Shown: one piece after another, positions 3,949 through 53,061 of the stretch
How the letters are laid out: each line of letters starts with the position of its first letter
Numbering within the stretch: position 1 is the stretch's first letter
NCBI GenBank assembly: GCA_024641735.1
Contig: JAHECN010000003.1
Location: 1-56,279 of the forward strand
DNA length: 56,279 nucleotides
DNA from: Gemmatimonadota bacterium
GTDB lineage: Bacteria > Gemmatimonadota > Gemmatimonadetes > Gemmatimonadales > GWC2-71-9
Direction of reading: 5' to 3'
Notes under the pieces: generated by a model
Told to the model about the DNA's origin: nothing
Database searches by the model: none
Seen by the model: the letters and a program-made list of their open reading frames with translations, nothing else
Made by a program: the position numbers and the translations under genes

Positions 3949-3954
3949 CGGCAC

Positions 3955-36163: not shown

Positions 36164-37159
36164 TCAGGTGAGTACGGTCACCTGAGCCGAGCGAGCCAAG
36201 TGACGGACCATCTGCTCCGCCGCGAGTTGATCCATTCCGAAGGAAGCCGTGGCCGCCGCATCCGCGTCGATACACCGATCGGTCTGCACGGTCACGCTGT
36301 GCCACGGTCCCGTCCGCGGGACCGCCGTGGCCGGATCCATCAAGTGATGGAACCGCCGCCCCTGCCAGTCAAAGAACTGGGCATAGTCGCCTGACGTGGC
36401 CACCGCCTGATCGGAGACTTCCAACGTCAGCGCGACGGTCTCTTCCGTGTGGGGGGAGCGAATGCCGACACGCCAGGGTTCGCCGTCGGGCGCATGCCCG
36501 AGGGCGTAGAGATCGCCGCCGACATTGACGATCGCGTGCGCCACCCCACGGTCGCGCAGACGCTGCACCGCAACGTCCACCCCGTATCCCTTGGCGATGC
36601 CACCGAGATCGAGTCGCACATCGCGCTCGGTGAACCGGACCATGTTGCCGCGACTGGTGGGCGCCACATCGACATGACGCCAGAAGCCGCGCCCCGCGAG
36701 TGGGCGCACTAGCGCCTCGGCCGGTGGCGCATGGTGGTGCGCGACATCCCAAAGCTCTACTACCGAACCGATCCCCGGGTCGAACCGTCCGTCGGTGGCC
36801 TCGGCCCACCGCAACGCAGTGGCGATCACGCTCGCCGTGGCCGCCGAGATCGGCACACCATCACGTGCAGCAGCTGCGTTGGCCCGGCCAATGTCGGAGG
36901 TGGTACGGAACCGGGTCATCGACCATTCGACGCGGCGCAACGCATCCATCGCGGCGTCAAGCGCATCCTGCGCAGCACGTTCATCGTGATGGACCACGGT
37001 CAGGTCCGCGATCGTCCCCATCACGGGCATGCTGCGCCGAGCAACAACCTGATGCCGACGCAACGCGAGGGGGAGCGATGCCACGACGAAGGCACCCACG
37101 CCAAGTCCCAGAAAATGTCGACGGGTGAGCCGTCCGGTGTCGCGCCTGTCATTGGTCAT
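36164..37159 (-). CDS. apbE: FAD:protein FMN transferase, Tat-exported
   Basis: A 331-aa ApbE that attaches FMN by a phosphoester bond to Thr in RnfG and RnfD. A twin-arginine signal (TRRHFLGLGVGAFVVASLP) precedes the domain. Family blocks RSMPVMGT, LDLGGIAKGYGVD, VNVGGDLYALG and HHLMDPATA are present, as is the metal-binding Asp near the C-terminus. It starts 11 bases inside the small Cys-rich gene at the end of the rnf cluster, which fits maturation of that complex in the periplasm. Confidence 0.95.
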   Translation of the reverse strand: MTNDRRDTGRLTRRHFLGLGVGAFVVASLPLALRRHQVVARRSMPVMGTIADLTVVHHDERAAQDALDAAMDALRRVEWSMTRFRTTSDIGRANAAAARDGVPISAATASVIATALRWAEATDGRFDPGIGSVVELWDVAHHHAPPAEALVRPLAGRGFWRHVDVAPTSRGNMVRFTERDVRLDLGGIAKGYGVDVAVQRLRDRGVAHAIVNVGGDLYALGHAPDGEPWRVGIRSPHTEETVALTLEVSDQAVATSGDYAQFFDWQGRRFHHLMDPATAVPRTGPWHSVTVQTDRCIDADAAATASFGMDQLAAEQMVRHLARSAQVTVLT

Positions 37160-37295
37160 CGTGATGCTCCCCCGTGTAGTGCGAACAACTGTTGCTGCAT
37201 CCCCCGCAGTGGCCGCCGCATCCTCGTTGTCGGACCAGCCCAAAGAGCGCGAAGAGCAGCGCCGTCGTCCCGATCGCCAGAATGGTCGACATCAT
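37149..37295 (-). CDS. 48-aa Cys-rich membrane protein, possible Rnf maturation factor
   Basis: One hydrophobic helix (ILAIGTTALLFALFGLV) is followed by a basic patch and the cluster C26-x3-C30-x2-C33-x3-C37, then a His/Asp-rich tail. Its ATG overlaps the rnfA stop by four bases, and it overlaps apbE by 11, so it is translated with the Rnf genes. The layout resembles NqrM, the small Cys-rich protein needed to place iron in the NqrD/NqrE centre, and also FeoB-associated Cys-rich proteins. A role in building the RnfA/RnfE [2Fe-2S] site is a reasoned guess. Confidence 0.7.
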   Translation of the reverse strand: MMSTILAIGTTALLFALFGLVRQRGCGGHCGGCSNSCSHYTGEHHDDQ

Positions 37296-37867
37296 CCCGC
37301 TCCCAGGCCGGCGAAGCCCATGAACGCCAGGGCGAGGCACGACGCGATGATCAGCGAGAGGCCGAAGCCTTGCGCGGCAGATGGAACATCCGCCAGATCG
37401 AGCCGCTCGCGGATCGATGCCATCAAGGCGAGTGCGAGCGTCAGGCCGAGGCCGGCGCCCACAGCAAACGCGAGACCCTGCCACAAGTCATAGCCACGAT
37501 TGGTCTGGAAAATGGCCAGCCCGAAGATCGCGCAGTTGGTGGTGATCAATGGCAGGTAGATGCCCAATGCCCGGAAGAGCGTCGGACTGAGCTTCTTGAT
37601 GGCCATTTCTACGATCTGGACCAGCGACGCGATCACGATGATGAACGAGATGATCCGCAAGTACGGTGCGTTGGCGAGAATGAACCGATTGAGGAACCAG
37701 ACCGATGTCGAGGTGATGACCATCACGAAGACATTCGCCGTACCGAGTCGGAGCGCAGTCTCCGTCTTGCTCGTGACCCCGAAGAAGGGGCAGAGCCCAA
37801 GGAATAGCGTCAACGTGAAGTTGTTGATCAGCAGCGCGGAGAGGAGAATCCAAGTCAGATCGCTCAC
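37292..37867 (-). CDS. rnfA: Rnf complex subunit RnfA
   Basis: A 191-aa protein with six membrane helices. FLGLCPFFGV near the start and LITTNCAIFG in the middle hold the two Cys that, with those of RnfE, bind the intramembrane [2Fe-2S] cluster. This passes electrons across the membrane between the flavins. GTG 37867 overlaps the rnfE stop (GTGA). Confidence 0.96.
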   Translation of the reverse strand: MSDLTWILLSALLINNFTLTLFLGLCPFFGVTSKTETALRLGTANVFVMVITSTSVWFLNRFILANAPYLRIISFIIVIASLVQIVEMAIKKLSPTLFRALGIYLPLITTNCAIFGLAIFQTNRGYDLWQGLAFAVGAGLGLTLALALMASIRERLDLADVPSAAQGFGLSLIIASCLALAFMGFAGLGAG

Positions 37868-38499
37868 GCGGCACCTTCCCCGTTCGCTCGGCCCGTGGAG
37901 CGCTTGGCATGCCATCCGAGCACCAGCATCACCACGCCGAGCGTCAGAAAGCCCCCCGGCGGGAGCACCATGATCACCCACGGTTCGAATCGCGGCCCGA
38001 GAAGATCGATCCCGAGGAGGGCGCCCGTCCCGAGCAGTTCCCGCACGGCACTCAAGAGCACCAAGACCAGCGTGAATCCCGCGGCCGTCCCGAGCGCGTC
38101 CAACAGCGAACGCTTCACCGATTGGCGTGACGCGAACGCCTCAGCGCGGCCAAGAATGATGCAGTTCACCACGATGAGGGCCACAAACGGGCCAAGCTGC
38201 TTGTGGACGACCGGCACCGCGGCTTCCAGCAGCATGTCGGCGATCGTGACGAAGGTGGCAATGATCAGCACGTAGGAGGTGATCCGCACCTCGTGCGGAA
38301 TCCATTTCTTGAGGGAGGAGACCAGCAGGTTGGATCCCAGCAACACAAAGGCCGTGGCCATCGCCATGGCCAAGCCGTTCGCCACCGAATTGGTCACGGC
38401 CAATGTCGGGCAGAGCCCGAGCATCTGGACCACGACTGGATTCTCCCGCCACACACCGCGCAAGAAGTCGTCGAACGTTGCCGGCACTTGATCGCTCAC
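37864..38499 (-). CDS. rnfE: Rnf complex subunit RnfE
   Basis: A 211-aa membrane protein paralogous to RnfA with inverted topology. The Cys ligands appear in MLGLCPTLAV and VVNCIILGRAEAFA. The GTG at 38499 overlaps the rnfG stop. A longer in-frame reading upstream lies over rnfG and is not real. It contributes two ligands to the shared [2Fe-2S] site. Confidence 0.96.
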   Translation of the reverse strand: MSDQVPATFDDFLRGVWRENPVVVQMLGLCPTLAVTNSVANGLAMAMATAFVLLGSNLLVSSLKKWIPHEVRITSYVLIIATFVTIADMLLEAAVPVVHKQLGPFVALIVVNCIILGRAEAFASRQSVKRSLLDALGTAAGFTLVLVLLSAVRELLGTGALLGIDLLGPRFEPWVIMVLPPGGFLTLGVVMLVLGWHAKRSTGRANGEGAA

Positions 38500-39161
38500 G
38501 GGGTCCCTCCCCGCAGGTACGCCTGCAGGAGCGGCTGCCATCGGCTCGTGGCGTTGTTGATGATGTTCACCACGGTGCGCGACGAAATGGTGGCGCCGGT
38601 GATGGTCTGCAGGTCGTTCGGTGTACTTGGGGCACTCTTCACACCGCGCAACGGAGTCGCCGGGCCGTCGAAGCGCGAGGTGAATGGCGTCTTCTCGATC
38701 TTGTCGCCGAGGCCCGGTGTTTCCTTGTGCGCGAGGACCTTCATGCCCAGCAATGTGCCGCGGGTCGGTTCGAGGCCGAAGATGAGGCTGATCACGTCGG
38801 AGAACCCTGGTTCTCCAGCGGTGACTGCGGCGCCGATCACGCTGTCCGAGGCCGTGTAGCCGAGGAAGACGCGCTCCAACTGACGCCGATCGGCTCCTGC
38901 CGACGGCGTCTTGGTGAGCACACCACCTTCCAAGTAGAGCGTGTCCCATCGTGCGGGCGCCTTCAGAACTTCGCGTACCGCACTTTCGACCAGTTCCGCG
39001 CGATGCGCCTCAATGCGTGGCAACGTCGCGCTGTACACCGTCACGATCAGTCCACCGGCGAGCGCGCCCGCAAATCCGAGCGTCGCCAACAGCCGCCAAG
39101 ACGGGACGGCGGGTGCGGGTTCCATCTCGGGAGGTGCGCCGTGCGCGTGACCTGCACTCAT
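38496..39161 (-). CDS. rnfG: Rnf complex subunit RnfG (FMN-binding)
   Basis: A 221-aa subunit with one N-terminal membrane helix (about 24-46) and a periplasmic FMN-binding domain. The attachment motif is at 185-191 (QTITGAT) with Thr191 as the expected phosphoester-FMN site; the position usually taken by Asp is Gln185. KETPGLGDKIE is another conserved block. ATG 39161 overlaps the rnfD stop by four bases. Confidence 0.95.
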   Translation of the reverse strand: MSAGHAHGAPPEMEPAPAVPSWRLLATLGFAGALAGGLIVTVYSATLPRIEAHRAELVESAVREVLKAPARWDTLYLEGGVLTKTPSAGADRRQLERVFLGYTASDSVIGAAVTAGEPGFSDVISLIFGLEPTRGTLLGMKVLAHKETPGLGDKIEKTPFTSRFDGPATPLRGVKSAPSTPNDLQTITGATISSRTVVNIINNATSRWQPLLQAYLRGGTP

Positions 39162-40150
39162 CCGGGCACCCTCCGGCGCGTCCCGAAGACGCGCGGTTGG
39201 GTCATTCGGTTGATGAAGGGCACCAGTGCATTCATCAAGAGGATCGCATACATCACGCCTTCCGGGAGTCCGCCCCAGAGTCGGATCACCACGACAAGTA
39301 CACCGATCCCGGCACCGAAGATCCATCGTCCCGTGTTGGTGACTGGTGAGGTCACCATGTCCGTTGCCATGTAGACCGCGCCGAGCATCAGGCCACCGGA
39401 GAAGAGCATGAACCAGGCGTCAGGATGCGTCGGGTCGACCGTGTGCATCACGGTGGCGAGGAGGGCGGTGCTCAACAGGACACTCACCGGAATGCGCCAG
39501 TTGAGATAGCCGCGCCACGCCAGGTACGCTCCACCCGCAAGGATGACCAACGCCGCCGTTTCGCCGAGCGAGCCACCGGTGGTGCCGAGGATCAATTCCC
39601 GGAGTGGGGTGAGGGTGCCCTCAAATTTGTGCAGCCCCAGCGGGGTTGCCTCGGTGAGCGCGTCCGTCTGGGCGCTGGTGAATGGGAACGCGAAGGTGTC
39701 GCCGCGGAGGGTCCAGAAACTCTGACCGGCTGCGGGCCATGTCGTGATGGCAACCGGGAAGGCCGCCTGCAAGAAGGCCCGCCCGATCAATGCCGGGTTG
39801 AAGACATTCTGCCCGAGGCCGCCAAAGACCAGTTTGCCGAAGCCGACGCCGAAGATCCCGCCCAGCACGGCCATCCAGAGTGGCAGCCCCGCCGGTAGGC
39901 AGAGCCCGAGGAGGATGCCCGTGATCACCGCAGAACCGTCGCCGAGGGTGTCGCCCCGCCCGAAGCCGCGTTCCGTCACCAGGGCACCGATCGTGGTGGC
40001 CGCAATGACCAGCAGGGCGCTGATGCCGAAACTGAAGCCCGCGACGGCGATCACCGGGAGCAGGCTCAGCACGACATGCCACATGATCCGCGGGGTGGAG
40101 TCGCGATCCTTGAGGTGCGGCGAGGCCGTGACGACGAGTGGAGTACTCAT
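39158..40150 (-). CDS. rnfD: Rnf complex subunit RnfD
   Basis: A 330-aa membrane protein with about nine helices. It carries a covalent FMN site in DALTEATPL (163-171, Thr169) and probably riboflavin. Conserved blocks include VFNPALIGRAFL and YMATDMVTSPVT. It forms part of the ion pathway of the complex. The ATG is at 40150, overlapping the rnfC stop (ATGA). Confidence 0.96.
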   Translation of the reverse strand: MSTPLVVTASPHLKDRDSTPRIMWHVVLSLLPVIAVAGFSFGISALLVIAATTIGALVTERGFGRGDTLGDGSAVITGILLGLCLPAGLPLWMAVLGGIFGVGFGKLVFGGLGQNVFNPALIGRAFLQAAFPVAITTWPAAGQSFWTLRGDTFAFPFTSAQTDALTEATPLGLHKFEGTLTPLRELILGTTGGSLGETAALVILAGGAYLAWRGYLNWRIPVSVLLSTALLATVMHTVDPTHPDAWFMLFSGGLMLGAVYMATDMVTSPVTNTGRWIFGAGIGVLVVVIRLWGGLPEGVMYAILLMNALVPFINRMTQPRVFGTRRRVPG

Positions 40151-41475
40151 GGGGCGCTCGCCTGTGCGCGGCGCAATCCGGCCTTGCTGACCTGGAAGAG
40201 CTGCGACAACGGGATATTGGAAGGACAGACATAGGAGCAGGATCCGCAGAGCATGCAATCCGAAAGATGGGCGTCGGTCATCTCGTCATAGCGGCCGACC
40301 CGCGCGAGGTCTCCGAGGAGTGACGGGTTCAGGAAGACCGGGCAGGCATCGAGGCAGCGGCCGCAATGGATGCACGGATACACACGTTCCGTGCGCGTTT
40401 CCTGGCGGGCGAGGACCACGATGCCGGTGGTGCCCTTGGTGATCGGGGCGTCGAGGTTGGCCTGGGCGAGGCCCATCATCGGGCCACCGGCAATCACTTG
40501 GGCCGCATCGGCCGTGAGGCCGCCGCACTGATCAAGCAGGTCACGCAGCTTGGTGCCAACCGGCACGATCAGGTTGGCCGGACGGGTCAGCCCATGTCCC
40601 GTGACGGTGACGATCCGCTCAATCAGGGGAAGCCCGGTCTCGAACACTTCCGCAATTGCCGCGGCCGATCCGACATTCTGTACGACCACGCCAGCAGAGA
40701 CCGGAAGTTTTCCGGACGCGACCTCGTGGCCCGTCACCGCGTGGATCAGCATCTTCTCTGCGCCCTGCGGATACTTGACCGTGAGCGGCAGGATCGTGAT
40801 GTCGAGATCGGTCGGGATGGTCCGGGTCAGGGCCTCGATGGCGTCAGGCTTGTTCCGCTCTACGCCGATCACCGCTTTGGAAACGCCGAGCGTCTGCATC
40901 ATCACGCGAATGCCGAAATGCACCCGCTTGGGGTATTCCGCCATCGTGCGGTGATCGGAGGTGAGGTACGGCTCGCATTCCGCCCCATTGATGATCAGCG
41001 TATGGATCGGAAAATCCTTGGGTGGCGCCAGTTTGACGTGGGTCGGGAAGCCGGCCCCACCGAGGCCAACGACGCCGGCATCTTGCACCGCCTGGACCAC
41101 CTCATCCACCGAGAGGCCTTCCCAGTGCGGAACCATCCGGGGGCGCGGGATCTGTGGTGCATAGGGGTCCACGAGAATCCGGACCGCCATTGCCATCGTG
41201 CCATCAGGATGCGGCCACCAGTCGACGTCCACGACCTTGCCGGCGGCGGAGGAGTGAATCGGCACGGAGATGTAGCCGTCGGCCTCTCCCACCTTGTCGC
41301 CGCGCTCGACCCGGTCGCCCACCTTGACGCAGAGTGTCGCCGGCTTCCCGGCGTGTTGCCGGAGCGGGAGGACGATCTCCTTGGGGTACGCCATCCGCCG
41401 GATCGGAAGCTGTGCCGTCAGCTCCTTCGATTCCGGCGGATGCACGCCGTGCGCGAACCCGGAAGTGAACCACAT
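40147..41475 (-). CDS. rnfC: Rnf complex subunit RnfC (NADH-binding)
   Basis: A 442-aa peripheral subunit that holds the NAD site and FMN. VGLGGAGFPTHVKL and LIINGAECEPYLTSDH are the family FMN/NADH-binding blocks. Two [4Fe-4S] motifs follow: CIHCGRCLDACP and CMLCGSCSYVCP. The N-terminal barrel (GVHPPESKELT) is present, and there is no long C-terminal repeat extension. ATG 41475 is shared with the nifJ stop (TGATG), showing that nifJ and rnfC are translated as a pair. Confidence 0.96.
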   Translation of the reverse strand: MWFTSGFAHGVHPPESKELTAQLPIRRMAYPKEIVLPLRQHAGKPATLCVKVGDRVERGDKVGEADGYISVPIHSSAAGKVVDVDWWPHPDGTMAMAVRILVDPYAPQIPRPRMVPHWEGLSVDEVVQAVQDAGVVGLGGAGFPTHVKLAPPKDFPIHTLIINGAECEPYLTSDHRTMAEYPKRVHFGIRVMMQTLGVSKAVIGVERNKPDAIEALTRTIPTDLDITILPLTVKYPQGAEKMLIHAVTGHEVASGKLPVSAGVVVQNVGSAAAIAEVFETGLPLIERIVTVTGHGLTRPANLIVPVGTKLRDLLDQCGGLTADAAQVIAGGPMMGLAQANLDAPITKGTTGIVVLARQETRTERVYPCIHCGRCLDACPVFLNPSLLGDLARVGRYDEMTDAHLSDCMLCGSCSYVCPSNIPLSQLFQVSKAGLRRAQASAP

Positions 41476-44400
41476 CAGTTGAACTTCTCCGCCCGCGCGA
41501 CCCACTTTGCCAGGTCCTTCTCCTTCGGATTCAACGGCGTGCCGGGATGGATCAGCGCCACCGGGCAGCGTTCTGCCGCCAGCACCAACTGCTGGAAGGT
41601 GCCGGCCGTTGCATCCTTGATGTAGGCCTGCTTCACGTCGTTGTAGGCGAACATCCGGCTGTTGAGGTTGGTGCACTCGTTGCACGTGGTGCAGTTGGCG
41701 GAATCGATGTACGCCTCAAGGGTGAGGGGTGCGTCGTCCCCGGCCTCAGGCGCAACCGGAGCGGCCGTCGGTGTGGCAACGGGAGCCGATGCCGCCGGTT
41801 CTGGGGCGCTGGGTGGTGTGGCGGCCACGGGTGTCGGAGCAACTGCAGCCTCTGCTATGCCGTGGCCATTGCCAGAGGATGCCGTGGCCGCCGAGGCCGG
41901 CAATGTTGCCAGGAGGTCGGCGATCACGGCACCACCGCCTTGCTTCATCAATCCTTCGACGAGTCGCTTGGCGATTTCCCGTGGATAGTTGGCGCGCATC
42001 GCTGCGAGTGACGCATCGAACTCGGCGCGCAACGTGGCCTCGCGCTGGGCGTACGCGGTGTCCAGATCTCGTGCGACGAGATCGCGAACACTCTCCGACA
42101 CTTCGACGCCCGCGAGCTGCCGCAACTGCGACCAGTACTCGAGTCGCTCCTGCGCCAGAGTTGCCATCGCTGGTGCCACACGCATCCGGCGCAACCGGCG
42201 TTCCCGGGTCACCCCATGAATGAATGCCACCTTCCCCTCACGTTCGTCGAACGGGATGGTGATGTACTCATGGAATGGCACCATCGCATCGTCCCACTGT
42301 TCGGGCGGTACTTCCGTGAAGTGCTGCTTGAATCGCGTCTCAGTGGCCGCCCAATCCGCGATGGTCAGCGGTAACGTCATGGTCTGTTCGGCGCCGTCTT
42401 CGTCGACATACGCGAGGGAGTACTCGGGCCAATCGGTGTCGACTGACGGGTTGCCATCCAGGCTCATGCAGTCGGCGAAGGACGGGCCCCCATCGGGGTC
42501 ATAGCTGAAGAACGGGAAGGCCCGGCTCTCCAACGAGAGGCGCGCCGCGTGCTGTGCCCAGTCGTCGGCGAGGCCGTGCTCCACCGGGCATGGCGTGTAG
42601 ATGTTGAAGATCGCCGGGCGCCGCTTCTGAAGGCCCTTGAGCACGCCGCTGAGCAGGTGGGACGCCGCTGCCTGCGAGGATTGGTGGACGAAGACCCCGC
42701 GGTGTGCGATCGCCAGCAGGCCGAGTTCCTTGCGCACTTCGGTCTTGCCGGACTGCGCCTTGCCGAAGGCCGACATGTCGGCGACCTGTCCCGTGAACCC
42801 GCTGGTGCACGCCTGTCCACCGGTATTGGAATAGACCTGTGTGTCGAGGACGACGACCCGGATCGGCTTTCCGGAGGCGAGGAGTCGTGAGAGGTTCTGG
42901 AAGCCGATGTCGAGCATCGCCCCGTCGCCGCCCATCGCGACAATCGGAGGGCAGAGATGGAATTCGTCATCCGTGAGCTGCTGCCAATCGAGGCGATTGA
43001 GCTCCGGTTCCATCGTGGCCGCGTCATAGCTCCCCTCGGCCAACGCGCGTGCGCGCCGAATGGCGATGAAGCCGTCGGTCATCTTCCGCATGTGCGCTTC
43101 GAAGAGGCCGATCGCGATCGATGGCGAATCCTGGAAGAGGTGGTTCACCCATGGGAAGGGGTACGGGTTGTACGGGTACGTGCTTCCCCAGACGGAGGAA
43201 CAGCCCGTCGAGTTGGCCATACCCAGCGACGCGCGTCCCTTGCCACTCGGTCCCTTGACGTAACGCCACTGCAGGTCCGTGATGGCGCGAAGCGATTCGT
43301 TGAGCAGTGCCAGTTCGGCGCGCTTGGCGTCCGCCATCGGGACTGCGACGGAATCTTTCGAGGCCTCCGCCGCAGCCAGGTCCACACCTGAGGCCACCAG
43401 CGCGCGGGCCTTGGCGTCGAGTGTGGCAATCAGGTCGTCGAGTTCACGAACCTGCGCGGCGACGCGCGGGGCCATCATCGCGTGAATCGCCGACACAATC
43501 AGGTGGACGGTCGTCTTCTCACCGCACCCCATGCAGGCGCCGTCGCCGCCGACCATCGAGCGGTAGGTCTCCTTCTTGAGCAACATCGAGGAGAGAACGC
43601 CAATCCCCTCGCTCATGTCGGCAATGTTGATGAATCGATCATTGGTGTCCGGAAGGTGCTGCCAGACGGCCCAGTTGCGACGCAGTTCCGCGAGGTTGGC
43701 GTCGTCCTGCTTGACGGTGATCAGCGCACCATCCGGGCAGACCTCCACACAGAGGTTGCATCCTTTGCACGCTTCCGGATTGACCGTGATCGACAGCAGG
43801 CCACCACCACCCTTGGACTTCGACTCGTGGGTGTCGAAGAAGGGCCGGGTCCGTGCCAGCGGGAACTCGGCCAATTGGCTCTGAATCACGGCGTGTTCCA
43901 CATCCGTGGCGGCACGACGCTCTGCGTCCCACGACATCTTGGCGGCCACCGCCTGATATCCCTGCGCGAAGGCGTCGGAGACGCTCAGGCTGGAATCCTT
44001 GCCGAGGAGGGTGTGGGTTTCACGCGCCCAGTGCTTGACGATCGGTCGCACCTTCCCGAACGTTGCGCCGTTCGTGGTGCTCCGAATCACCGCGTCGATG
44101 ACTTCTTCGGCGCTGTTCACGACGCCGGGGATCGCCGAGTCGGGACACTGGACCCAGCACTGCGAGCAGCCGGTGCACTTGTCGGCGATGAACGCCGGGA
44201 CCTCAAGGCGCACACCGCTCATGTCTCGCACGCTGCTGGTCACCGCGGGAATGGCGCTGATCGCAGCAAAGGGGTCGGCGATCCCGTCCTCGCCGAGGGT
44301 GCACATGGAGCAGACCTGCTCCCAAAAACGCCCCTCATGCCCGATGCCCTCAGCGGCATCATTGGCGGACATCAGGACCGGCATCTGGGGGACTTCCCCG

Positions 44401-46529
44401 CGCTCGTCGGGGATCTCCGTGCTGGACCCGATCACTTCGTGGAGCTCGTCGTAGCCGCGACGGATGACGCGCAGGTTGTCCTGGACCACCTGGTCGCCAC
44501 GATGCCCGAACTTCTTGGTGAGCTGCTTGGTAATGCCCTTGAAGAGCGCTTCTTCCGACACGCCTTCCTTTTCGCGCAGCGGTGAGGTGCGGAAGAAGGC
44601 GCCCATGAAGGCGGCACCCTGCATCCGGTACCGCAGCTCAGCGTCCGAGGCCTCGCTCATCGCGATCGCGAACGCGTCCAGCACATAGAGGCGGATCTTG
44701 CGATCGATGATCGTGCGGCGCGCCTTGGCCGGCAGCGTCTGCCAGAATTCGTCCGGCGGAAGATCGGACTGGATGACAAAGACGCCATGGTCCGCGAGCC
44801 CGGCGAGCGGGTCACTGTGCCGGAACACATTGGGGTCGGGCGACAGCACGACATCCACGTACTTGAGCTCACAGTTGAGCCGAAGCGGTTCGTGCGCGAG
44901 CACGGCGTAGAAGGTCGTCGGCTGCCCCTTCTTCTCGGAGCCGTACTTCGGATTGGCCTTCACCTGGAGGCCGAAGAGCTCGAACGCCGTCATCGCAACA
45001 TTCTTGCCCATGGTGATGGCACCCCAGCCACCGACCGAATGGATGCGCAGCGCGGTTGAACTTGCCGGAAGCATGTTGACCGGTGCCGCCGGTGTGAGCG
45101 ACAGCTCCGTCAGATGCGGGTAATGATCCACCAACTCTTCTTGCCAGATCTGGAGCTTCGGTGCCCGGGTCGCCTGACGGACGAAGTCGATGCCGAGATA
45201 GAACTGCCGCTGACGTCCGCCGTCCGGCAGCATGTTCTCGACGGCAGCGACGATGTCCCCCGGCTGCAAGTCACGACTGCCAAGGCCGAAGCAACCGCTG
45301 AAGAAGTCGGGCACCTGTTCCGGTCGGAGCGGGCGAACGCCAGCGTGGGCATCCGGAGAGCGGGAATTCTCCACGCCCTGTGCCATCGCCGCGCGAATCT
45401 CCCGAAGCAACGGCGCGTCCACGGCGAGCGGTTGATCGACGCGCTCCAACACGGTGACGCCCTTCTTGCCGGCAAGGAGCGCCGTGAGGACGTCCGCCGG
45501 GAAGGGGCGGAACATGGTCAGGTGGACGACGCCGACTTTCAGCCCGCGAGTCGCCCGGAGATGGTCGGCCACGACTTCCGCGTTGGAGCAGACCGACCCC
45601 TGGCCGAGGATGACATACTCGGCGTCATCGAGGCGATACCCCATCGCTCGGGCGTAGCGCCGACCGGTCAACGCGGCGTACTCTGCAAAGGCGCGTTCCG
45701 ACAGCTCACGAATGTGATCGAAGTAGAAAGGCCGTTGCGCCGCCACGCCCTGTGCGTAGCTGTCCTGATTCTGCACCGTCCCCAGCATGGCCGGGTAGTC
45801 GAGGTCAAACATCTCCGGGATCCGCCGACGCGTGGCACCGAACACCATGCGTTGGGCGGGAGTCGGGGAGTCGATCAGGTCGCTCGGATCCCCGAGGTAC
45901 TCCTTGATCAAGGCAGGCTCGGGAAGGCGCAGCGACTCGATGACGTGACTGGTGAGAAAGCCATCCTGGGCCACCAGCCCGGGATTCAGCGACAACTCAG
46001 CGATGCGGTGTGCGATCAACGTGAGATCCGCGGTCTCCTGCACATCCTTGGCAAAGAGCTGGAAGAATCCGGTATCGTCGACGGCGTGATAGTCATCGTG
46101 CCCGGCGTGCACGTTCAGCGCGTGCTTGGTCATGGCGCGCGCGGCGACGTTGAGCACGTAGGTCAGGCGCTTGCCGACCGCCGCGTAGAGCGACTCGTGC
46201 ATGTACGCGATACCCTGACCGCTCGAGAAGTTGGTCGAACGGAGCCCTGCCATGCTCATGCCCGCGGTGACCGCGGCGGCAGCATGTTCGCCTTCCGGCT
46301 CGAAGAAGAGCAGGCGTCGGCCGAACACGTTTGGGGTGCCCTCGGCGACAGCCGCCGCCCATCCCTCACCCATCTGCGTGGATGGCGTGATCGGATAGGC
46401 GCCGGCGGCTTCGCTGGCGCCGGTCTCCATCGCGACGACCGCGGAACTGCCGTCGAGCGCCACCAGTTTGCCGGGGTACTTCACGGTGGCCGCCTGGGGG
46501 ACCGCGGCTTCCTTCGTCTTGAAAAACAT
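41475..46529 (-). CDS. nifJ: Pyruvate:ferredoxin oxidoreductase, very long, with C-terminal ferredoxin-like domain
   Basis: A 1684-aa homodimeric-type PFOR; usual length is about 1200. It oxidises pyruvate with CoA to acetyl-CoA and CO2 and reduces ferredoxin. In order, it has a pyrimidine-binding domain (AYPITPSTQMGEGWA), a γ domain (GGWGAITMGKNVA), two [4Fe-4S] motifs (CTGCSQCWVQCP and CKGCNLCVEVCP) and a TPP domain (GDGACMGCGEKT, MGGDGAMLDIG). After the core comes a helical stretch, a Pro/Ala-rich linker (about 1544-1605) and a cluster motif Cys1613-x2-Cys-x2-Cys-x35-Cys1655-Pro. The gene shares single bases with rnfB and rnfC, so it is an integral part of the rnf operon. Confidence 0.95.
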   Translation of the reverse strand: MFFKTKEAAVPQAATVKYPGKLVALDGSSAVVAMETGASEAAGAYPITPSTQMGEGWAAAVAEGTPNVFGRRLLFFEPEGEHAAAAVTAGMSMAGLRSTNFSSGQGIAYMHESLYAAVGKRLTYVLNVAARAMTKHALNVHAGHDDYHAVDDTGFFQLFAKDVQETADLTLIAHRIAELSLNPGLVAQDGFLTSHVIESLRLPEPALIKEYLGDPSDLIDSPTPAQRMVFGATRRRIPEMFDLDYPAMLGTVQNQDSYAQGVAAQRPFYFDHIRELSERAFAEYAALTGRRYARAMGYRLDDAEYVILGQGSVCSNAEVVADHLRATRGLKVGVVHLTMFRPFPADVLTALLAGKKGVTVLERVDQPLAVDAPLLREIRAAMAQGVENSRSPDAHAGVRPLRPEQVPDFFSGCFGLGSRDLQPGDIVAAVENMLPDGGRQRQFYLGIDFVRQATRAPKLQIWQEELVDHYPHLTELSLTPAAPVNMLPASSTALRIHSVGGWGAITMGKNVAMTAFELFGLQVKANPKYGSEKKGQPTTFYAVLAHEPLRLNCELKYVDVVLSPDPNVFRHSDPLAGLADHGVFVIQSDLPPDEFWQTLPAKARRTIIDRKIRLYVLDAFAIAMSEASDAELRYRMQGAAFMGAFFRTSPLREKEGVSEEALFKGITKQLTKKFGHRGDQVVQDNLRVIRRGYDELHEVIGSSTEIPDERGEVPQMPVLMSANDAAEGIGHEGRFWEQVCSMCTLGEDGIADPFAAISAIPAVTSSVRDMSGVRLEVPAFIADKCTGCSQCWVQCPDSAIPGVVNSAEEVIDAVIRSTTNGATFGKVRPIVKHWARETHTLLGKDSSLSVSDAFAQGYQAVAAKMSWDAERRAATDVEHAVIQSQLAEFPLARTRPFFDTHESKSKGGGGLLSITVNPEACKGCNLCVEVCPDGALITVKQDDANLAELRRNWAVWQHLPDTNDRFINIADMSEGIGVLSSMLLKKETYRSMVGGDGACMGCGEKTTVHLIVSAIHAMMAPRVAAQVRELDDLIATLDAKARALVASGVDLAAAEASKDSVAVPMADAKRAELALLNESLRAITDLQWRYVKGPSGKGRASLGMANSTGCSSVWGSTYPYNPYPFPWVNHLFQDSPSIAIGLFEAHMRKMTDGFIAIRRARALAEGSYDAATMEPELNRLDWQQLTDDEFHLCPPIVAMGGDGAMLDIGFQNLSRLLASGKPIRVVVLDTQVYSNTGGQACTSGFTGQVADMSAFGKAQSGKTEVRKELGLLAIAHRGVFVHQSSQAAASHLLSGVLKGLQKRRPAIFNIYTPCPVEHGLADDWAQHAARLSLESRAFPFFSYDPDGGPSFADCMSLDGNPSVDTDWPEYSLAYVDEDGAEQTMTLPLTIADWAATETRFKQHFTEVPPEQWDDAMVPFHEYITIPFDEREGKVAFIHGVTRERRLRRMRVAPAMATLAQERLEYWSQLRQLAGVEVSESVRDLVARDLDTAYAQREATLRAEFDASLAAMRANYPREIAKRLVEGLMKQGGGAVIADLLATLPASAATASSGNGHGIAEAAVAPTPVAATPPSAPEPAASAPVATPTAAPVAPEAGDDAPLTLEAYIDSANCTTCNECTNLNSRMFAYNDVKQAYIKDATAGTFQQLVLAAERCPVALIHPGTPLNPKEKDLAKWVARAEKFN

Positions 46530-47359
46530 TATGCTGCCTCCGAGACCGGTGCACGGGTGAACTGTGCGCCGGAGAGCCAAACGATTGCGTTGGTTGGACA
46601 TCGGGCGACGGCGCGGGCATCCGCGAGCGCCGCCAGTTCCTGATTCACGACTGCCACTCCGCTGGCGATGCTGATCAATCCCGGCTCCGCGTCCTGCACG
46701 CACTTGCCGCATGCGGTGCACGCGACCTCGCACTGGGAGAGGATGTCGTCACCGACCATCAGGTTCTTGCACTGCACCAGGAGTGGCTGATCGACGGGGA
46801 GAATGGTGAACAACGTCTTGGGGCATGCCTCCACGCAGTCGCCGCACGCGGTACAGGCCACGGGGTCGACAACCGGGATGCCGTGGGCATTCATGTGGAT
46901 CGCGCCGAAGTCGCAACTGCGCTCGCAGTCGGCGAGACCGAGGCAGCCCCAGGTGCAGCCCTTGCCGCCCCCAGCGACCGCGGCGGCGGCTCCACAGGTC
47001 GCCACGCCACGGTATTCCGCGCGTTGGATCGCCACGTCGGTGCCGCCGGCACAGAGCAGGCGGGCCACCCGTTTCACGGCGACGCCGGCGTCCACCCCGA
47101 GGTAGCCCGCGATCTGGTCGCGCGAGGCCTCGGTGGCCACCGAACATTGGGAGACTTGGATGGTCCCTGCGACTGCCGCCTCCGCGAACGAACGACAGCC
47201 GGGGAGGCCGCATGCACCGCAGTTCGCGCCGGGAAGAATCGACGTGACGACGCCGATGCGGGGGTCCTCCCACACGGTGAGATTGGCGTTGGCGAGTGCG
47301 ATCAGGATGCCGAACGCCAGCCCTACACCACCAAGAATCAGGATCGCGTCGAGCACCAT
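46529..47359 (-). CDS. rnfB: Rnf complex subunit RnfB (ferredoxin-oxidising)
   Basis: A 276-aa polyferredoxin anchored by one N-terminal helix. An N-terminal [4Fe-4S] motif Cys47-x2-Cys50-x4-Cys55-x16-Cys72 is intact. Further sets are 135/139/145/149 and 169/172/175/179, plus 214/217/220 paired with 254. The last set has VQDAEPG where a fourth Cys is normal, and the final motif keeps only one Cys, so one cluster seems to have been lost. RnfB receives electrons from ferredoxin, here probably from the adjacent PFOR. The nifJ ATG lies in its TAA stop. Confidence 0.94.
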   Translation of the reverse strand: MVLDAILILGGVGLAFGILIALANANLTVWEDPRIGVVTSILPGANCGACGLPGCRSFAEAAVAGTIQVSQCSVATEASRDQIAGYLGVDAGVAVKRVARLLCAGGTDVAIQRAEYRGVATCGAAAAVAGGGKGCTWGCLGLADCERSCDFGAIHMNAHGIPVVDPVACTACGDCVEACPKTLFTILPVDQPLLVQCKNLMVGDDILSQCEVACTACGKCVQDAEPGLISIASGVAVVNQELAALADARAVARCPTNAIVWLSGAQFTRAPVSEAA

Positions 47360-47381
47360 GCTCCGCTCCGGTGTTGGCGCG

Positions 47382-48386
47382 TCAGGCGCCGTCCTGAAGC
47401 CCGGTCTGGCCGAGCAACCACTGCGTGACGCGATCGACGGCGTCCTCTGCCCCGATCGCAGGTGTGCCCGTACCGTCGCGTGCCGGGACCGAGAACGGGG
47501 TCCGCGCGAGATCGGTGAGCAGTCGAACATCCTCTGCCATCTGCCACACGCTGATGCCGTCGATCGGCGCCTTGGGTGCCACGGCGTTCGTGCCAATCGA
47601 CAGACGCTGCCACCCTTCGGCGCCGCCACGCGGATCGTGGGTGAAAGTCGTGCACCCTTCCGGCACCATCGCCACGATCGCGGGTCCGTCGAAGGAGGCC
47701 ACCTGATCCAATCCGGCGCCGTCGACGGTCTGCATCACGAAGGTCCCCGGCGTGATGCACCGGGCGAGCGGGGCGGGCGCACAGGGCCCGCTGACGACCA
47801 ACACCAGCTTGGCGCGACCATCGGCGAAGTCGGTGAGGGCACCAGAGTGGAGATCCGCCCCACGCAGGACGATCACGAGCGGCGGGGCAAAGCGTCGTTC
47901 CGCGCGATTCCAGGTGCGGAACTCCGCTGGATCCAGCAGCCGATCGTGGGTCGCGGCGTCGTAGCGTCCGGCGCGAATCAATTCCGCCAACACGATCGCG
48001 CCAAACGCCTGTCCCGCACGCGCCAGTGCCGCGTCGATCGTGGCACCGAGTTTCCGCCCTTCGGTGACTTCGGTGACAAAGAGGTCCGAGGCCTCGCCGT
48101 TGACTGCCTCCAGCGTCTGCACGGCACGATCGAGCATCGCGAGCGATGCCGGATCGCCGGATCCGAGCGGCGGAAAGAGTGTGGCGAAGCGCCCGGCATC
48201 GATGCGACCCGTCGCGAACTCGCCCAGCTCAAACGCCGCACGCGATGCGCGAATGGCGGGGCTGGCATGGTGTGCGTCAAGGAAGCCACTCGCCTGCGTG
48301 AGTGCGCCCTCCACAGCCGCACGAAACTCGGCAATCGGTTGGGCCAGCGCGTCGAGCGCGACGGCGACCCGAGGATCAGACAGCAT
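47382..48386 (-). CDS. Unknown 334-aa protein between korB and rnfB
   Basis: A soluble, Ala-rich protein with no signal peptide, no membrane helix and no cluster-binding motif (Cys only in SGPCAPAPLARC and EGCTTF). The first half is helical; the second half alternates β-strands and loops (PPLVIVLRGADLHSGALTD, KLVLVVSGP, GPAIVAMVPEG). The ATG lies 11 bases inside korB, and rnfB starts 22 bases after its stop, so it is embedded in the electron-transfer operon. It could be a scaffold or assembly factor linking the oxidoreductases with Rnf. No family is recognised. Confidence 0.78.
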   Translation of the reverse strand: MLSDPRVAVALDALAQPIAEFRAAVEGALTQASGFLDAHHASPAIRASRAAFELGEFATGRIDAGRFATLFPPLGSGDPASLAMLDRAVQTLEAVNGEASDLFVTEVTEGRKLGATIDAALARAGQAFGAIVLAELIRAGRYDAATHDRLLDPAEFRTWNRAERRFAPPLVIVLRGADLHSGALTDFADGRAKLVLVVSGPCAPAPLARCITPGTFVMQTVDGAGLDQVASFDGPAIVAMVPEGCTTFTHDPRGGAEGWQRLSIGTNAVAPKAPIDGISVWQMAEDVRLLTDLARTPFSVPARDGTGTPAIGAEDAVDRVTQWLLGQTGLQDGA

Positions 48387-49332
48387 ACTTGTCGAACTCC
48401 TCTTCGAGGCGCGTATTGCGCTCCGTCGGCGTGCGCGGGGTGGTGCGCCGGGTTTCCTCGTATCTCGGCCGGGACGGATCGCGGAAGAAGACGCCGAGAT
48501 GAATTCGGTCGTCGGACTCTGCGTAGTGCCGCGCCGCCGCGAGATCACGGGGGTCGTGATGAATTTGAGTCTTGTAGATCTTCTCGATCTCCGGCACGAT
48601 GACGCCGTCATCGTGCACCAGCAGCGCGATCTGTGAGGGATCGCGCACAGCAGAGGCAAAGATCTCGGGTGTAAACACCGGGCAGCGCTGGAGAATCCGG
48701 ACGAAGCTGGTTCCCTTGTGCTGGTAGGCCGCCCGGAGGGTGGCATACAAGTGTGCCGGGACCCACTCCGCGGTCTGCGCCACAAACGACGCATTGGTCA
48801 CCCCGAGGGAGACCGACAACGGATTCATCGCCGGGAGGTAGCTCCCGCGGGGCTGGGTGTTGCTCACCGTGCCCTGCGGAGTCGTCGGCGACGTCTGCTT
48901 CTTGGTCAATCCGTAGATGGCGTTGTCGAGCATCATCACCGTGAGGTCGACATTGTATCGCAGCGCGTGAATCCAGTGCGCGGCGCCGATCGAGGTGCAG
49001 TCGCCATCACCCATGACCGTGAACACGCTCAGTTCCGGCCGATGCAACTTGATGCCGGTGGACACCGGCAACGCCCGGCCGTGAATGCCGTGGAAGCCAT
49101 AAGTCTTCAGATAGTGCGGGAACCGGCTGGAACAGCCGATGCCGGAGACGAAGACGGTCTGTTCCGGTACCAGTTGTTCGGCGGCGAGGAGCCGCTGCAC
49201 CGCCGTCAGGATGCCGTGGTCACCACAGCCGGCACACCACCGGGCCCGCGCGCCTTCGTAACTGTCCATCCCGTAGGGCTCGTCGCTCCCTTTCCGCTGG
49301 ATGACATGGAGCAGTTCGCAGGAGAGACTCAT
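48376..49332 (-). CDS. korB: 2-oxoacid:ferredoxin oxidoreductase β subunit
   Basis: A 318-aa TPP-binding subunit. RWCAGCGDHGILTAV and the TPP/Mg motif GDGDCTSIGAAHWIHALRYN identify it, with YGLTKKQTSPTTP following. No separate δ-ferredoxin subunit is encoded. It pairs with the fused γ/α subunit just upstream (four-base overlap). It probably oxidises 2-oxoglutarate or another 2-oxoacid to the CoA ester with reduction of ferredoxin; the substrate cannot be fixed from sequence. Confidence 0.93.
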   Translation of the reverse strand: MSLSCELLHVIQRKGSDEPYGMDSYEGARARWCAGCGDHGILTAVQRLLAAEQLVPEQTVFVSGIGCSSRFPHYLKTYGFHGIHGRALPVSTGIKLHRPELSVFTVMGDGDCTSIGAAHWIHALRYNVDLTVMMLDNAIYGLTKKQTSPTTPQGTVSNTQPRGSYLPAMNPLSVSLGVTNASFVAQTAEWVPAHLYATLRAAYQHKGTSFVRILQRCPVFTPEIFASAVRDPSQIALLVHDDGVIVPEIEKIYKTQIHHDPRDLAAARHYAESDDRIHLGVFFRDPSRPRYEETRRTTPRTPTERNTRLEEEFDKYAV

Positions 49333-51239
49333 GCTGCACCTCCAGAGAGCACGCGTTCGCGGATGGCGGTGACAATCGAACCAGGGCGCAGGGGCTCACC
49401 TGGCACTCGGGTCCAGCTGTCGACATCGACCAGCGTGGAGGAGCGCAGCAGCATCGCCATCTGGCCACGCCGGCGGTTCTCCTCAGTGATGTAGGGTGCG
49501 TCAGGGTCATCGGAATAGTTGATCTCGACGGCGACCACCTTGGTGAAGCGCTGCAGGATCGCCTTGATCCCAGGCTCCAATGGCGAGAGGAAGCGCAGGT
49601 GGAGTGACGAGACCTTCAACCCATCGGCCCGCACCCGATCCACGGCCTCCTCAATGGCACCCTTGGTGCTTCCCCAACCGACGACCAGCAGATCCCCGCC
49701 CTCCTCGTCGCCATAGACCACGGGTGGGGTGAGCACGCTCTGCAGCACCGCCAGCTTGCGGCTCCGCATGGCGGAGGAGTGCTGATGAATGCCGGAACTG
49801 TAGGCGACTTTGCTGCGCTCGTCGTGCGAGAGCCCGGTCAACGTGAACATGCCACCGGGTTGGCCCGGGACGATGCGCCGTGAAAGCCCGGTCTCCTCCT
49901 CCCAGGCGTACGGGAGGTCGGAGTCGCCCACGGGGGCGAGGTCGATCGGCGCAGCCTGCCACTGGGAGTCGAGCGTGGGACGCGGGTACGGCGCCACACC
50001 GGTGGCGAGATTCGCGTCGGTCAGCACCATCACCACTGCGCGGAAGGTCTCGGCGATGCGTCGCGCCGTGATCATCACGTGGAAGCACTCTTCGATCGTC
50101 GCGGGGGCGACAATCACGTGCGGTGCATCTCCCGGCTGTCCGAAGAGCGCGGCCAGCAAATCCGACTGCTCCACCTTGGTCGGGAGTCCGGTGCTCGGTC
50201 CGCCGCGTTGGACATCGACCACCACGAGTGGCGTTTCCGTCATGATCGCGAGGCCGAGGAACTCCGTCTTCAGCGCGAGCCCTGGTCCGGAGGTGATCGT
50301 GAGGGCGACTTTTCCGGCGTACGAGGCGCCAATCGCCACGCCGGCGGCTGCGATTTCGTCTTCCGCCTGGTGGACCACGCCACCGAAGCGTTCGAAGACC
50401 TCACTCAGGTAGTGCGACACCGAGGTGGCCGGGGTGATCGGGTACATCGCGCAGAGCTCGAAGCCCGCCGCGATGGCTCCCATTCCGATGGCCTCGTTGC
50501 CGTTCATCACCACCAGCGGTGTGTCGATCGGTGCAGGCGGCACATCAATCCGAAAACCGATGTGTTCCTGAGCCCACTGGTAGCCGAGATTGACGAGCGA
50601 CACGTTGGAGTCATAGACGGCTTCGCTCTTTTTGCGAAACGCGGTCGCGATTTGATCGCGGATCCGCTCCATGTCGCGGTCATAGATGTAGGCGAGCATC
50701 CCGAGTGCGAACATGTTCTTCCCCTTTCGGGGATTCTCCACCAGGGTCAGGCACTGCTCCTGCATCGGCACCGGGATAATGCGATACTCTCGCGTCGACA
50801 GCTCCTCCATCGCCGCCTCCCATGCCGCCACGATGGCGGGGTCTTGGGAGGTCGCCCACATCTCTTCGATGAGCAGGATCGCGTCCGGCGCGAGGGCGCC
50901 GACACGGTGCCGCGCCAGCAAGGCCTGTTCGTTGAAGGCCACGACCAGGTCGGTTTGGTCGCCCCAGTTGGTCACCGGACCGGCGCCGACACGAATGCGA
51001 TTGCCGCTGGCACCCTCCGGAACGCGTGGAGGTGGCTGCACTTCGGCCGGAATGATCTCGACGGTCCAGATCCCGTTTCCCATTTTGGCGGAAACGGCGG
51101 CGAAGATCTGCCCGCACTTCTGTGCGCCCTCGCCAGAATCCGAGACGATTTCGATCGTGTGTTCGCGAACGCGCAAATGTGCCGGAGGCGCCCCGGTCTG
51201 GGGGGCCACGGCACTCGTGGTTCCTGCGGAAATAGTCAC
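49329..51239 (-). CDS. korA: 2-oxoacid:ferredoxin oxidoreductase, fused γ-α subunit
   Basis: A 636-aa protein. The γ domain covers about 20-200 (SGEGAQKCGQIFAAVSAKMG), and the α domain about 225-600, with AMYPITPATSVSHYL, the Glu in AEDEIAAAG, and VDVQRGGPSTGLPTKVEQSD. It forms the oxoacid enzyme with KorB. The GTG at 51239 is preceded by a GAGG-containing stretch. It is the first gene of the KorAB-Rnf-PFOR operon, so the operon promoter should lie in 51240-51506. Confidence 0.94.
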   Translation of the reverse strand: MTISAGTTSAVAPQTGAPPAHLRVREHTIEIVSDSGEGAQKCGQIFAAVSAKMGNGIWTVEIIPAEVQPPPRVPEGASGNRIRVGAGPVTNWGDQTDLVVAFNEQALLARHRVGALAPDAILLIEEMWATSQDPAIVAAWEAAMEELSTREYRIIPVPMQEQCLTLVENPRKGKNMFALGMLAYIYDRDMERIRDQIATAFRKKSEAVYDSNVSLVNLGYQWAQEHIGFRIDVPPAPIDTPLVVMNGNEAIGMGAIAAGFELCAMYPITPATSVSHYLSEVFERFGGVVHQAEDEIAAAGVAIGASYAGKVALTITSGPGLALKTEFLGLAIMTETPLVVVDVQRGGPSTGLPTKVEQSDLLAALFGQPGDAPHVIVAPATIEECFHVMITARRIAETFRAVVMVLTDANLATGVAPYPRPTLDSQWQAAPIDLAPVGDSDLPYAWEEETGLSRRIVPGQPGGMFTLTGLSHDERSKVAYSSGIHQHSSAMRSRKLAVLQSVLTPPVVYGDEEGGDLLVVGWGSTKGAIEEAVDRVRADGLKVSSLHLRFLSPLEPGIKAILQRFTKVVAVEINYSDDPDAPYITEENRRRGQMAMLLRSSTLVDVDSWTRVPGEPLRPGSIVTAIRERVLSGGAA

Positions 51240-52586: not shown

Positions 52587-52618
52587 CAGGGCGCATCGGA
52601 GGAGAGTGATCGGCGAGG

Positions 52619-52900
52619 CTACGTCGTGAGCACCTTCCACGGCTGTACGCCTGCCTCGAACGCCATCGGTCCCCCGTAGCAGGTGCAGCGGGAGAGGCCG
52701 GGGGCGAGCGCGTCGTTCCACGCGGTCACCATGAAGCCCTTCTTGTCGCCGCGCACATCGACATGCCCGGAATAGCGCAGTTCCGGGAATCGCTCGCGCA
52801 GGTCCGCCATGCACTCGGCGTAGTGCCCATGTTCCCGGAGATACGCCTCCTGGGCAGTGATGAGATGATTGACGTCGTCGCGCAGCGAATCCAGATCCAC
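52619..52900 (-). CDS. Small protein resembling a type IV pilin soluble domain
   Basis: A 93-aa protein starts at GTG 52900. LITAQEAYLREHGHYAECMADL resembles the region just after the N-terminal helix of minor pilins and related proteins. The Cys residues in AECMADL and SRCTCYGG could form a disulfide. The hydrophobic N-terminal helix of true pilins is absent, so it is either a cytoplasmic relative or a truncated one. It lies 32 bases upstream of the D-threonine-aldolase-like gene. Confidence 0.55.
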   Translation of the reverse strand: MDLDSLRDDVNHLITAQEAYLREHGHYAECMADLRERFPELRYSGHVDVRGDKKGFMVTAWNDALAPGLSRCTCYGGPMAFEAGVQPWKVLTT

Positions 52901-53061
52901 AGGGCACTCGTGTCGGGGGATGCCATCAAATATATCCCATGACGACGCGCGGCCTCGAAATCCGACCGCAGCGCTTCCGATTCGGGCCGATCAATTCCGC
53001 AACTTTTCCGGGCGTGGCCGAGTATATCTCCTTGCGGGAATCACCCCGCCCCGGAGGTGCC

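Follow-up and report, generated by a model that had tools for sequence, protein, structure and literature searches.

A nifJ gene within an rnf operon

The window, a stretch of 56,279 nucleotides from a Gemmatimonadota bacterium, contains a complete set of genes for the RNF complex (rnfB, C, D, G, E and A) together with apbE and, between rnfB and rnfC, a long nifJ gene (Table 1). The start codon of nifJ (ATG at 46529) overlaps the rnfB stop codon by one base (TAATG), and that of rnfC (ATG at 41475) overlaps the nifJ stop codon in the same manner (TGATG). The names rnfE and rnfA are putative assignments that follow the order of the operon.

Table 1. Features of the nifJ-rnf region, with positions numbered from the first letter of the window
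Feature	Coordinates	Strand	Basis
apbE flavin transferase	36164..37243	minus	PF02424
rnfA (Rnf-Nqr)	37292..37981	minus	PF02508
rnfE (Rnf-Nqr), ORF bounds as listed, gene probably begins inside them	37864..38949	minus	PF02508
rnfG (FMN_bind)	38496..39326	minus	PF04205
rnfD	39158..40258	minus	PF03116
rnfC	40147..41475	minus	Profile matches
nifJ, long single-chain pyruvate:ferredoxin oxidoreductase, 1684 aa	41475..46529	minus	ORF and domain content
Fer4_13 single [4Fe-4S] ferredoxin domain with C-terminal helix, residues 1607-1684 (C1613, C1616, C1619, C1655)	41478..41711	minus	Pfam, phmmer, profile, model
Disordered linker rich in Ala and Pro (22 and 12 of 66), residues 1541-1606	41712..41909	minus	Lengths in relatives, pLDDT
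Helical hairpin joining the TPP domain to the linker, residues 1453-1540	41910..42173	minus	Predicted model
rnfB, ~277 aa if read from the likely ATG, with one FeS motif plus additional 4Fe-4S motifs	46529..47362	minus	Profile matches
X, 334-aa protein, no Pfam family, PFOR TPP-domain relative without GDG motif	47382..48386	minus	hhalign, VIA-align, Foldseek
korB-type 2-oxoacid:acceptor oxidoreductase beta subunit	48376..49332	minus	TIGR02177, 235.7 bits, below cut-off 261.9
korA-type 2-oxoacid:acceptor oxidoreductase alpha subunit	49329..51239	minus	TIGR03710, 529.9 bits, cut-off 482.75

NifJ is built from POR_N, PFOR_II and POR domains, two CxxCxxCxxxC motifs and a TPP domain, followed by the C-terminal ferredoxin. 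The Pfam scores all lie above cut-off (POR_N 156.6, PFOR_II 57.8, POR 95.8, Fer4 34 and TPP_enzyme_C 25.5 bits). The motifs are found at residues 45 (YPITPS), 785 and 921 (the four-cysteine motifs, whose cluster roles we take to be those of PFOR structures), 1201/1234 (ThDP, GDG...NTGG) and 1314 (CPxxHG), and pyruvate is the predicted substrate. Against the NCBIfam equivalog TIGR02176 the protein scores 418.7 bits, below the cut-off of 911.35, and judged by its sequence the long NifJ is a distinct, divergent family, a relative of TIGR02176 and not that equivalog.

The protein had been described in advance as some 450 residues longer than a typical NifJ. The size holds, with 1684 aa against 1171-1232 aa in solved PFORs, but alignment with these places only about half of the extra length at the C-terminus, the remainder being spread over internal insertions that fall within the first half, between one four-cysteine motif and the other, and ahead of the TPP domain. 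The neighbouring protein X is apparently a dead PFOR relative, or pseudo-PFOR. Its kinship to PFOR is drawn from hhalign together with VIA-align (Z 8.2, middling by the tool's own scale) and Foldseek (E 0.011, not significant by itself), and not from any single score.

The C-terminal ferredoxin domain and its tether

The interval 41475-41865 encodes residues ~1555-1684 and the stop codon. The open reading frame, its coordinates and the Cys1613 motif given in the preliminary description were reproduced from the sequence, the motif reading C1613-x2-C1616-x2-C1619-x35-C1655-P1656 in a protein that ends at residue 1684. Fer4_13 matches residues 1608-1661 with 27.5 bits against a gathering cut-off of 24.5, phmmer aligns ferredoxin I of D. 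africanus to residues 1606-1661 (E 2.6e-4) and the same ferredoxin is retrieved by a 24-row profile of the tail (E 3.3e-9). Structure prediction of the tail, which had been named beforehand as a check, gave a ferredoxin fold. In the AlphaFold model of residues 1440-1684 the pLDDT is mostly 92-97 in the tail and 43-63 in the linker, the hairpin helices span positions 14-33, 40-90 and 96-103 in model numbering, and the top Foldseek match of the tail is 1fxr (TMt 0.84, rmsd 0.9 Å over 58 residues). A chance cysteine motif is ruled out by the Fer4_13, phmmer, profile and fold matches.

Among relatives the four tail cysteines are invariant (61 of 61 aligned tails), the frequency of the top residue is 0.76 in the tail as against 0.38 in the linker, and linker length ranges from 25 to 107 residues. 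The proposal of a single-cluster ferredoxin on a flexible linker is thus upheld by the domain match, the 1fxr-like model, the low linker pLDDT and the range of linker lengths. As far as sequence and model can tell, the C-terminus of NifJ is a single [4Fe-4S] domain of the D. africanus ferredoxin I type on a disordered tether, and it would be expected to bind such a cluster. A search of viral contigs found no relative.

The PFOR of D. africanus is shielded by a C-terminal extension, and the tail described here, which likewise lies at the C-terminus, after the TPP domain in the sequence, could be regarded as a structural cap that transfers no electrons. We think this highly improbable, given that the four cysteines are kept in every aligned tail, that the closest match is an electron-transfer ferredoxin and that the linker is long, variable and disordered; the module has, moreover, moved to another carrier protein in some bacteria (see below) and one locus carries it as a triple repeat.

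Association of the tail with Rnf and with 2-oxoacid oxidoreductases

Gene order was compared across several phyla in 80 named loci, with counts covering those loci where the flank is visible. The gene directly upstream of nifJ is rnfB in 73 of 74 loci, and rnfC lies directly downstream in 53 of 56. The automatic tally was 72/74 and 50/56; one locus for rnfB (L123) and three for rnfC (L096, L112 and L114) were reclassified manually as present because the gene is adjacent and the alignment pieces are broken or of low identity. The downstream count omits the 18 loci (of 80) that lack a complete tail, 17 of which run past the contig end and one of which (L129) is frame-broken; apart from L129, the tail is present wherever the contig extends to the end of NifJ. 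Two loci (L061 and L108) keep the order rnfB-nifJ-tail, but rnfC is not directly next. Of the 55 loci with sufficient upstream sequence, 52 have korB within 4 kb. Oxidoreductases and Rnf are usually regarded as exchanging electrons through free ferredoxin as a common currency. The position of the tailed NifJ, in its bacterial order only beside rnf genes, suggests that both machines are wired together instead of sharing a free carrier.

Within the bacterial order of the host (151 genomes), strong matches to the tail occur in 34 genomes and to RnfC in 33, with an overlap of 33, such that no RnfC-bearing genome is without a tail. RnfC lies within ~180 bp of the tail in all 33 genomes carrying both, a count that takes no account of kinship and that is due in part to one operon being inherited as a unit. 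Weak matches to the tail profile on other ORFs cover at most the first 64 of its 83 positions. A close but tail-less long NifJ (80% identical over a TPP fragment) is found in a genome, G058, with neither RnfC nor RnfA/E, and in three further genomes (G116, G084 and G069) NifJs of 1593-1620 aa end without a ferredoxin and RnfA/E is absent. As a within-genome control, three genomes that encode the tailed NifJ contain in addition a canonical rnf cluster without nifJ or tail. The correlation search proposed in the preliminary description therefore returned a tail that is not equally common far from rnf, and tail-less long NifJs that sit in Rnf-free genomes.

The suggested link to an adjacent rnf operon is strongly supported by these counts but is not absolute, as three genomes without Rnf-Nqr matches keep the ferredoxin module. 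One of these (L081/G159) has the order korB-X-nifJ-tail and lacks RnfC and RnfA/E; in the other two (G042 and G381) X-type carriers of the module adjoin korAB and NfnAB. A module confined to Rnf genomes was accordingly dropped as an explanation. In one further genome (L181/G204) a tailed NifJ has no rnf gene in the surrounding 12 kb and Rnf-Nqr genes are located elsewhere. In the type-2 clusters, which have the gammaproteobacterial-type operon, the module is on X or directly after it in six of six cases and on NifJ in none, and the NifJ of this swapped operon has lost its catalytic motifs. The idea of a module confined to NifJ was dropped after this sample. The best reading of these arrangements is that the module is a movable part of a 2-oxoacid oxidoreductase assembly rather than of NifJ, and where NfnAB replaces Rnf the tethered module probably feeds NfnAB.

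The same observations lend something to the view that the tail serves as a device for docking or local concentration, which reduces free ferredoxins or flavodoxins or ties NifJ to KorAB and X, with the proximity of rnf being due only to a shared regulon and joint inheritance. The module is present in Rnf-free genomes, it has been relocated to X beside KorAB, and korB is nearby in most loci. Against this, rnf genes adjoin 14 of the 15 NifJ-carried modules of the gammaproteobacterial-type sample, with korAB not found near these 15 in the stretches read; within the order, every RnfC genome has the tail and the sole close tail-less NifJ belongs to an Rnf-free genome. We regard such a device as unlikely.

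A probable tethered electron carrier and its relation to known systems

The tail is probably a ferredoxin that is tethered to, and dedicated to, a 2-oxoacid oxidoreductase assembly wired to Rnf and sometimes to Nfn. Electrons from pyruvate oxidation would pass through three NifJ clusters to the tail ferredoxin, whose Ala/Pro tether would let it swing across to the clusters in the cytoplasmic part of RnfB, and Rnf would then reduce NAD+ and pump ions. In bacteria with the swapped operon the module would act from X, the neighbour of KorAB, while NifJ is without it. The cytoplasmic domain of RnfB takes electrons from ferredoxin (PMC12174285), and CX2CX2CXnCP ferredoxins of Aquifex are named as likely partners of PFOR and OGOR (PMC10052474). 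Transfer from NifJ via the tail to RnfB is what we infer, and a physical complex of NifJ and Rnf may accompany it, gene order alone being no proof of contact. A more ambitious version, which we hold only tentatively, envisages a stable supercomplex of NifJ, KorAB, X and Rnf in which one movable tethered ferredoxin acts as a swinging arm, coupling oxidation (or carboxylation) of pyruvate and 2-oxoglutarate to ion pumping without a diffusible ferredoxin; in some lineages NifJ would have decayed to a non-catalytic electron wire, with the ferredoxin on X.

The route would in principle be reversible, with NADH and the ion gradient equally able to drive reductive carboxylation. An assembly running mainly in this direction, with Rnf reducing the tethered ferredoxin and NifJ and KorAB acting as carboxylases, appears rather unlikely. 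In the reverse TCA cycle two steps fix CO2 with ferredoxin as donor, those of NifJ and KorAB, and nifJ and korAB are found in a single operon with Rnf; one type-2 cluster (L186) adds sucCD-like, NuoF-like and FAD_binding_2 genes. All 151 genomes of the order have E1_dh (PF00676) matches; pyruvate therefore probably has routes other than NifJ and oxidation need not rely on it, but the family is too broad to tell PDH from OGDH. Oxidation through Rnf would pay too, conserving the energy that PDH loses, and we lean slightly towards oxidation coupled to pumping. The question of direction is compatible with a tethered carrier in either case. NifJ as a simple replacement of the E1-type enzyme (PDH) was dropped in view of the ubiquity of PF00676.

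If correct, the tethered ferredoxin would channel low-potential electrons and add a further site of energy coupling at pyruvate, and perhaps at 2-oxoglutarate, in bacteria that possess E1-type dehydrogenases as well. The tie between tether and Rnf rests on gene order and shared absence across several phyla, and the tailed NifJ makes electron channelling directly testable, with natural controls on hand in the tail-less Rnf-less relative, the swapped-tail operon and the Nfn-linked versions. A literature search, in which most sources were represented by the beginnings of their abstracts, found no published account of a tailed NifJ within an rnf operon, and no papers linking Gemmatimonadota, PFOR and Rnf.

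The single-chain PFORs of D. africanus (1b0p) and Moorella (6cin) share with this NifJ the POR_N, PFOR_II, POR and TPP domains, both CxxCxxCxxxC motifs, YPITPS and GDG...NTGG. The protein differs from them in being ~450-510 aa longer, in its internal insertions, in a score far under the TIGR02176 cut-off and in its C-terminal tethered ferredoxin. The module has the same CX2CX2CXnCP pattern as the D. africanus ferredoxin I type (1fxr/1dax), with a closely superimposable predicted fold, but is covalently joined to NifJ (or X) and continues at its C-terminus into an additional conserved segment and helix. PFOR is likewise fused to an acceptor module in the PNO of Euglena, Cryptosporidium and ciliates (PMC6993867). 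The PNO module is, however, an NADPH-cytochrome P450 reductase domain, whereas that of NifJ is a one-cluster ferredoxin whose gene lies inside an rnf operon; a Pfam search of NifJ at E 0.01 returned no flavin (cytochrome P450 reductase) domain. In the RNF complex (RnfABCDGE), RnfB itself carries a ferredoxin-like domain on a flexible tether (PMC12174285). The genes for all six subunits of the complex, with apbE, flank nifJ here, and unlike the known RNF operon this one holds a 2-oxoacid oxidoreductase with a built-in ferredoxin between rnfB and rnfC.

A ferredoxin tail on NifJ

The window carries nifJ within a series of genes that are transcribed from one strand in the order korA, korB, X, rnfB, nifJ, rnfC, rnfD, rnfG, rnfE, rnfA and apbE. 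One base is common to the rnfB stop and nifJ start codons (TAATG) and likewise to the nifJ stop and rnfC start codons (TGATG), so that nifJ is embedded in the rnf operon. Upstream of korA is a relative of the 3-hydroxy-D-aspartate aldolase BhcC (168.7 bits, below the cut-off of 690).

Coordinates of the features in the window and in related loci
Feature	Location	Position	Strand	Length
nifJ ORF	window	41475-46529	minus	1684 aa from ATG at 46529
X, between korB and rnfB	window	47382-48386	minus	334 aa
BhcC relative	window	51507-52907	minus	
Tail-less NifJ	genome G058, locus L044	7113-11579		1489 aa from chosen Met
Second rnfB-C-D-G run	locus L067	21436-25130		
NfnA-NfnB-korA-korB-X (with ferredoxin tail) cluster	genome G042, locus L047 (G042:C74)	591-8255		
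Triple-module protein	genome G381, locus L190 (G381:C65)	7900-10566		

NifJ is composed of the Pfam domains POR_N, PFOR_II, POR, Fer4 motifs, TPP_enzyme_C and finally Fer4_13, which covers residues 1608-1661 with 27.5 bits against a cut-off of 24.5. The catalytic motifs are intact (YPITPS at 45, GDG at 1201, NTGG at 1234 and CPVEHG at 1314), as are both four-Cys motifs at 785 and 921, and TIGR02176 gives 418.7 bits against a cut-off of 911.35; judged by its sequence, the protein is a divergent PFOR. Alignment places about half of the extra length internally and about half at the C-terminus. The motif C1613-x2-C-x2-C-x35-C1655-P is present exactly as the preliminary description had read it. When searched against solved structures with phmmer, residues 1606-1661 aligned with D. 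africanus ferredoxin I (E 2.6e-4), which is also retrieved by a profile of 24 tails (E 3.3e-9), the four next matches being small ferredoxins too.

An AlphaFold model of residues 1440-1684, built from 48 sequences, has a helical hairpin, then a low-confidence stretch (pLDDT 43-63) and then a compact tail, mostly at 92-97, which has a short additional helix at its C-terminus. The solved structure nearest to the modelled tail is again D. africanus ferredoxin I (1fxr; TM 0.84 by target length, 0.9 Å over 58 residues). Across 61 aligned C-termini all four tail cysteines are invariant and the last is followed by Pro (48), Thr (10) or Lys (3), whilst the length of the linker ranges between 25 and 107 residues, with a median of 66; the linker contains 29% Ala and 14% Pro and is less conserved than the tail (0.38 versus 0.76).

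Association of the tail with Rnf

With strong-match thresholds of E < 1e-30 for the tail profile and E < 1e-20 for RnfC_N, 34 of the 151 genomes of the order have the tail and 33 have RnfC_N. The correlation with an adjacent rnf operon, which the preliminary description proposed as a check, is borne out: both occur together in 33 genomes, a count drawn from related genomes and not a probability, and in all 33 RnfC shares a contig with the tail and lies no more than about 180 bases downstream of it. The 34th genome, G042, has its tail on a protein other than NifJ. The NifJ TPP fragment, at 68% identity or above, finds the same 33 genomes plus G058, whose NifJ ends ahead of the linker and whose genome gave no match to RnfC or RnfA/E. 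This long, tail-less NifJ is solitary in a single-contig genome of 4,716,552 bases. A second long NifJ type (1593-1620 aa, 34-35% identical) is found in G116, G084 and G069; its C-termini are without ferredoxin and RnfA/E had no match in these genomes.

Among 84,980 species genomes scanned, 148 relatives were found, the best 80 of which were kept; all are titled as MAGs, from Gemmatimonadota, Planctomycetota, Rokubacteria, Gammaproteobacteria and a few others. The tail is complete in 62 of these 80 loci, the other 18 comprising 17 cut by contig ends and one frame break (L129). Counting four loci assigned by hand, rnfB is immediately upstream of nifJ in 73 of 74 loci with at least 500 bases visible, and rnfC immediately follows nifJ in 53 of the 56 loci where a tail and at least 400 bases can be seen. 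At L081 neither gene adjoins nifJ, and RnfC and RnfA/E were not matched in that genome; L061 and L108 have rnfB adjacent but not rnfC. Three genomes (L150, L151 and L152) combine a tailed NifJ with a separate canonical rnf cluster that has no nifJ. At L067, a second rnfB-C-D-G run, apparently without nifJ, lies directly 3' of the nifJ-bearing cluster.

Protein X and other carriers of the module

X, for which Pfam returned no family, is flanked by korB and rnfB in loci of the korAB type, from which 60 ORFs were extracted. Its model (pLDDT 91.8) is similar to the PFOR TPP domain with the GDG motif absent, and X is probably a pseudo-enzyme subunit of KorAB.

In a second sample, 274 genomes of the class to which the L113 genome belongs (title: Pseudomonadales), the tail matches at 24 places in 20 genomes. 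The carrier is NifJ at 15 places, 14 of which adjoin rnf genes; the exception, L181, has Rnf-Nqr genes elsewhere in its genome. At six type-2 loci (L186, L191, L192, L198, L200 and L201) the carrier is the protein between korB and rnfB, with the module of L201 in a separate frame immediately after X. This carrier is homologous to the X of the window (hhalign 97.7%, E 1.6e-12, 260 columns). The type-2 NifJ has no tail and is without YPITP, GDG...NTGG and CPxxHG, and keeps both four-Cys motifs; in that of L186, the only one domain-searched, POR and TPP_enzyme_C were not found. The remaining three places are tandem copies on one protein of G381. That protein is of the X type and lies beside korAB and NfnAB-like genes. 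In G042 the tail is on X, which follows NfnA, NfnB, korA and korB. RnfA/E had no match in the G042 and G381 genomes. The ferredoxin module moves between carriers. The central idea of the preliminary description, a tethered ferredoxin, is supported and extends beyond NifJ and Rnf, to X and to Nfn-linked cases.

Electron transfer and comparison with known enzymes

The simplest account is that the module would be a dedicated ferredoxin belonging to the oxidoreductase assembly, passing electrons to a ferredoxin:NAD(P) machine, mostly Rnf and in a few cases Nfn. The known ferredoxin acceptor of Rnf is the cytoplasmic domain of RnfB (available text of PMC12174285), and in Aquifex both PFOR and OGOR are likely to be partnered by ferredoxins of the CX2CX2CXnCP type (available text of PMC10052474). 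We infer a contact of the tail with RnfB, use of the same tail by X and KorAB, and the direction in which the electrons would travel.

As E1_dh matches in all 151 genomes of the order, it is suggested that the NifJ route supplements E1-type dehydrogenases. The gain may lie in a further ion-pumping step when pyruvate is oxidised or, somewhat less probably, in Rnf-driven carboxylation. The type-2 locus L186 also holds sucCD-like, NuoF-like, 2Fe-2S/4Fe-4S and FAD_binding_2 genes, and its sucCD-, NuoF- and FAD_binding_2-type neighbours suit carboxylation at least equally well.

A literature search, with most subscription journals outside its reach, returned no recognisable ferredoxin-tailed NifJ or nifJ within an rnf operon, which is not proof of novelty. 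The ferredoxin-tailed NifJ is real, widespread and functionally coherent, and is a variant of a known enzyme. The closest published fusion found is PNO, where PFOR is fused to a cytochrome P450 reductase domain (available text of PMC6993867), whereas the partner in the NifJ of the window is a ferredoxin.
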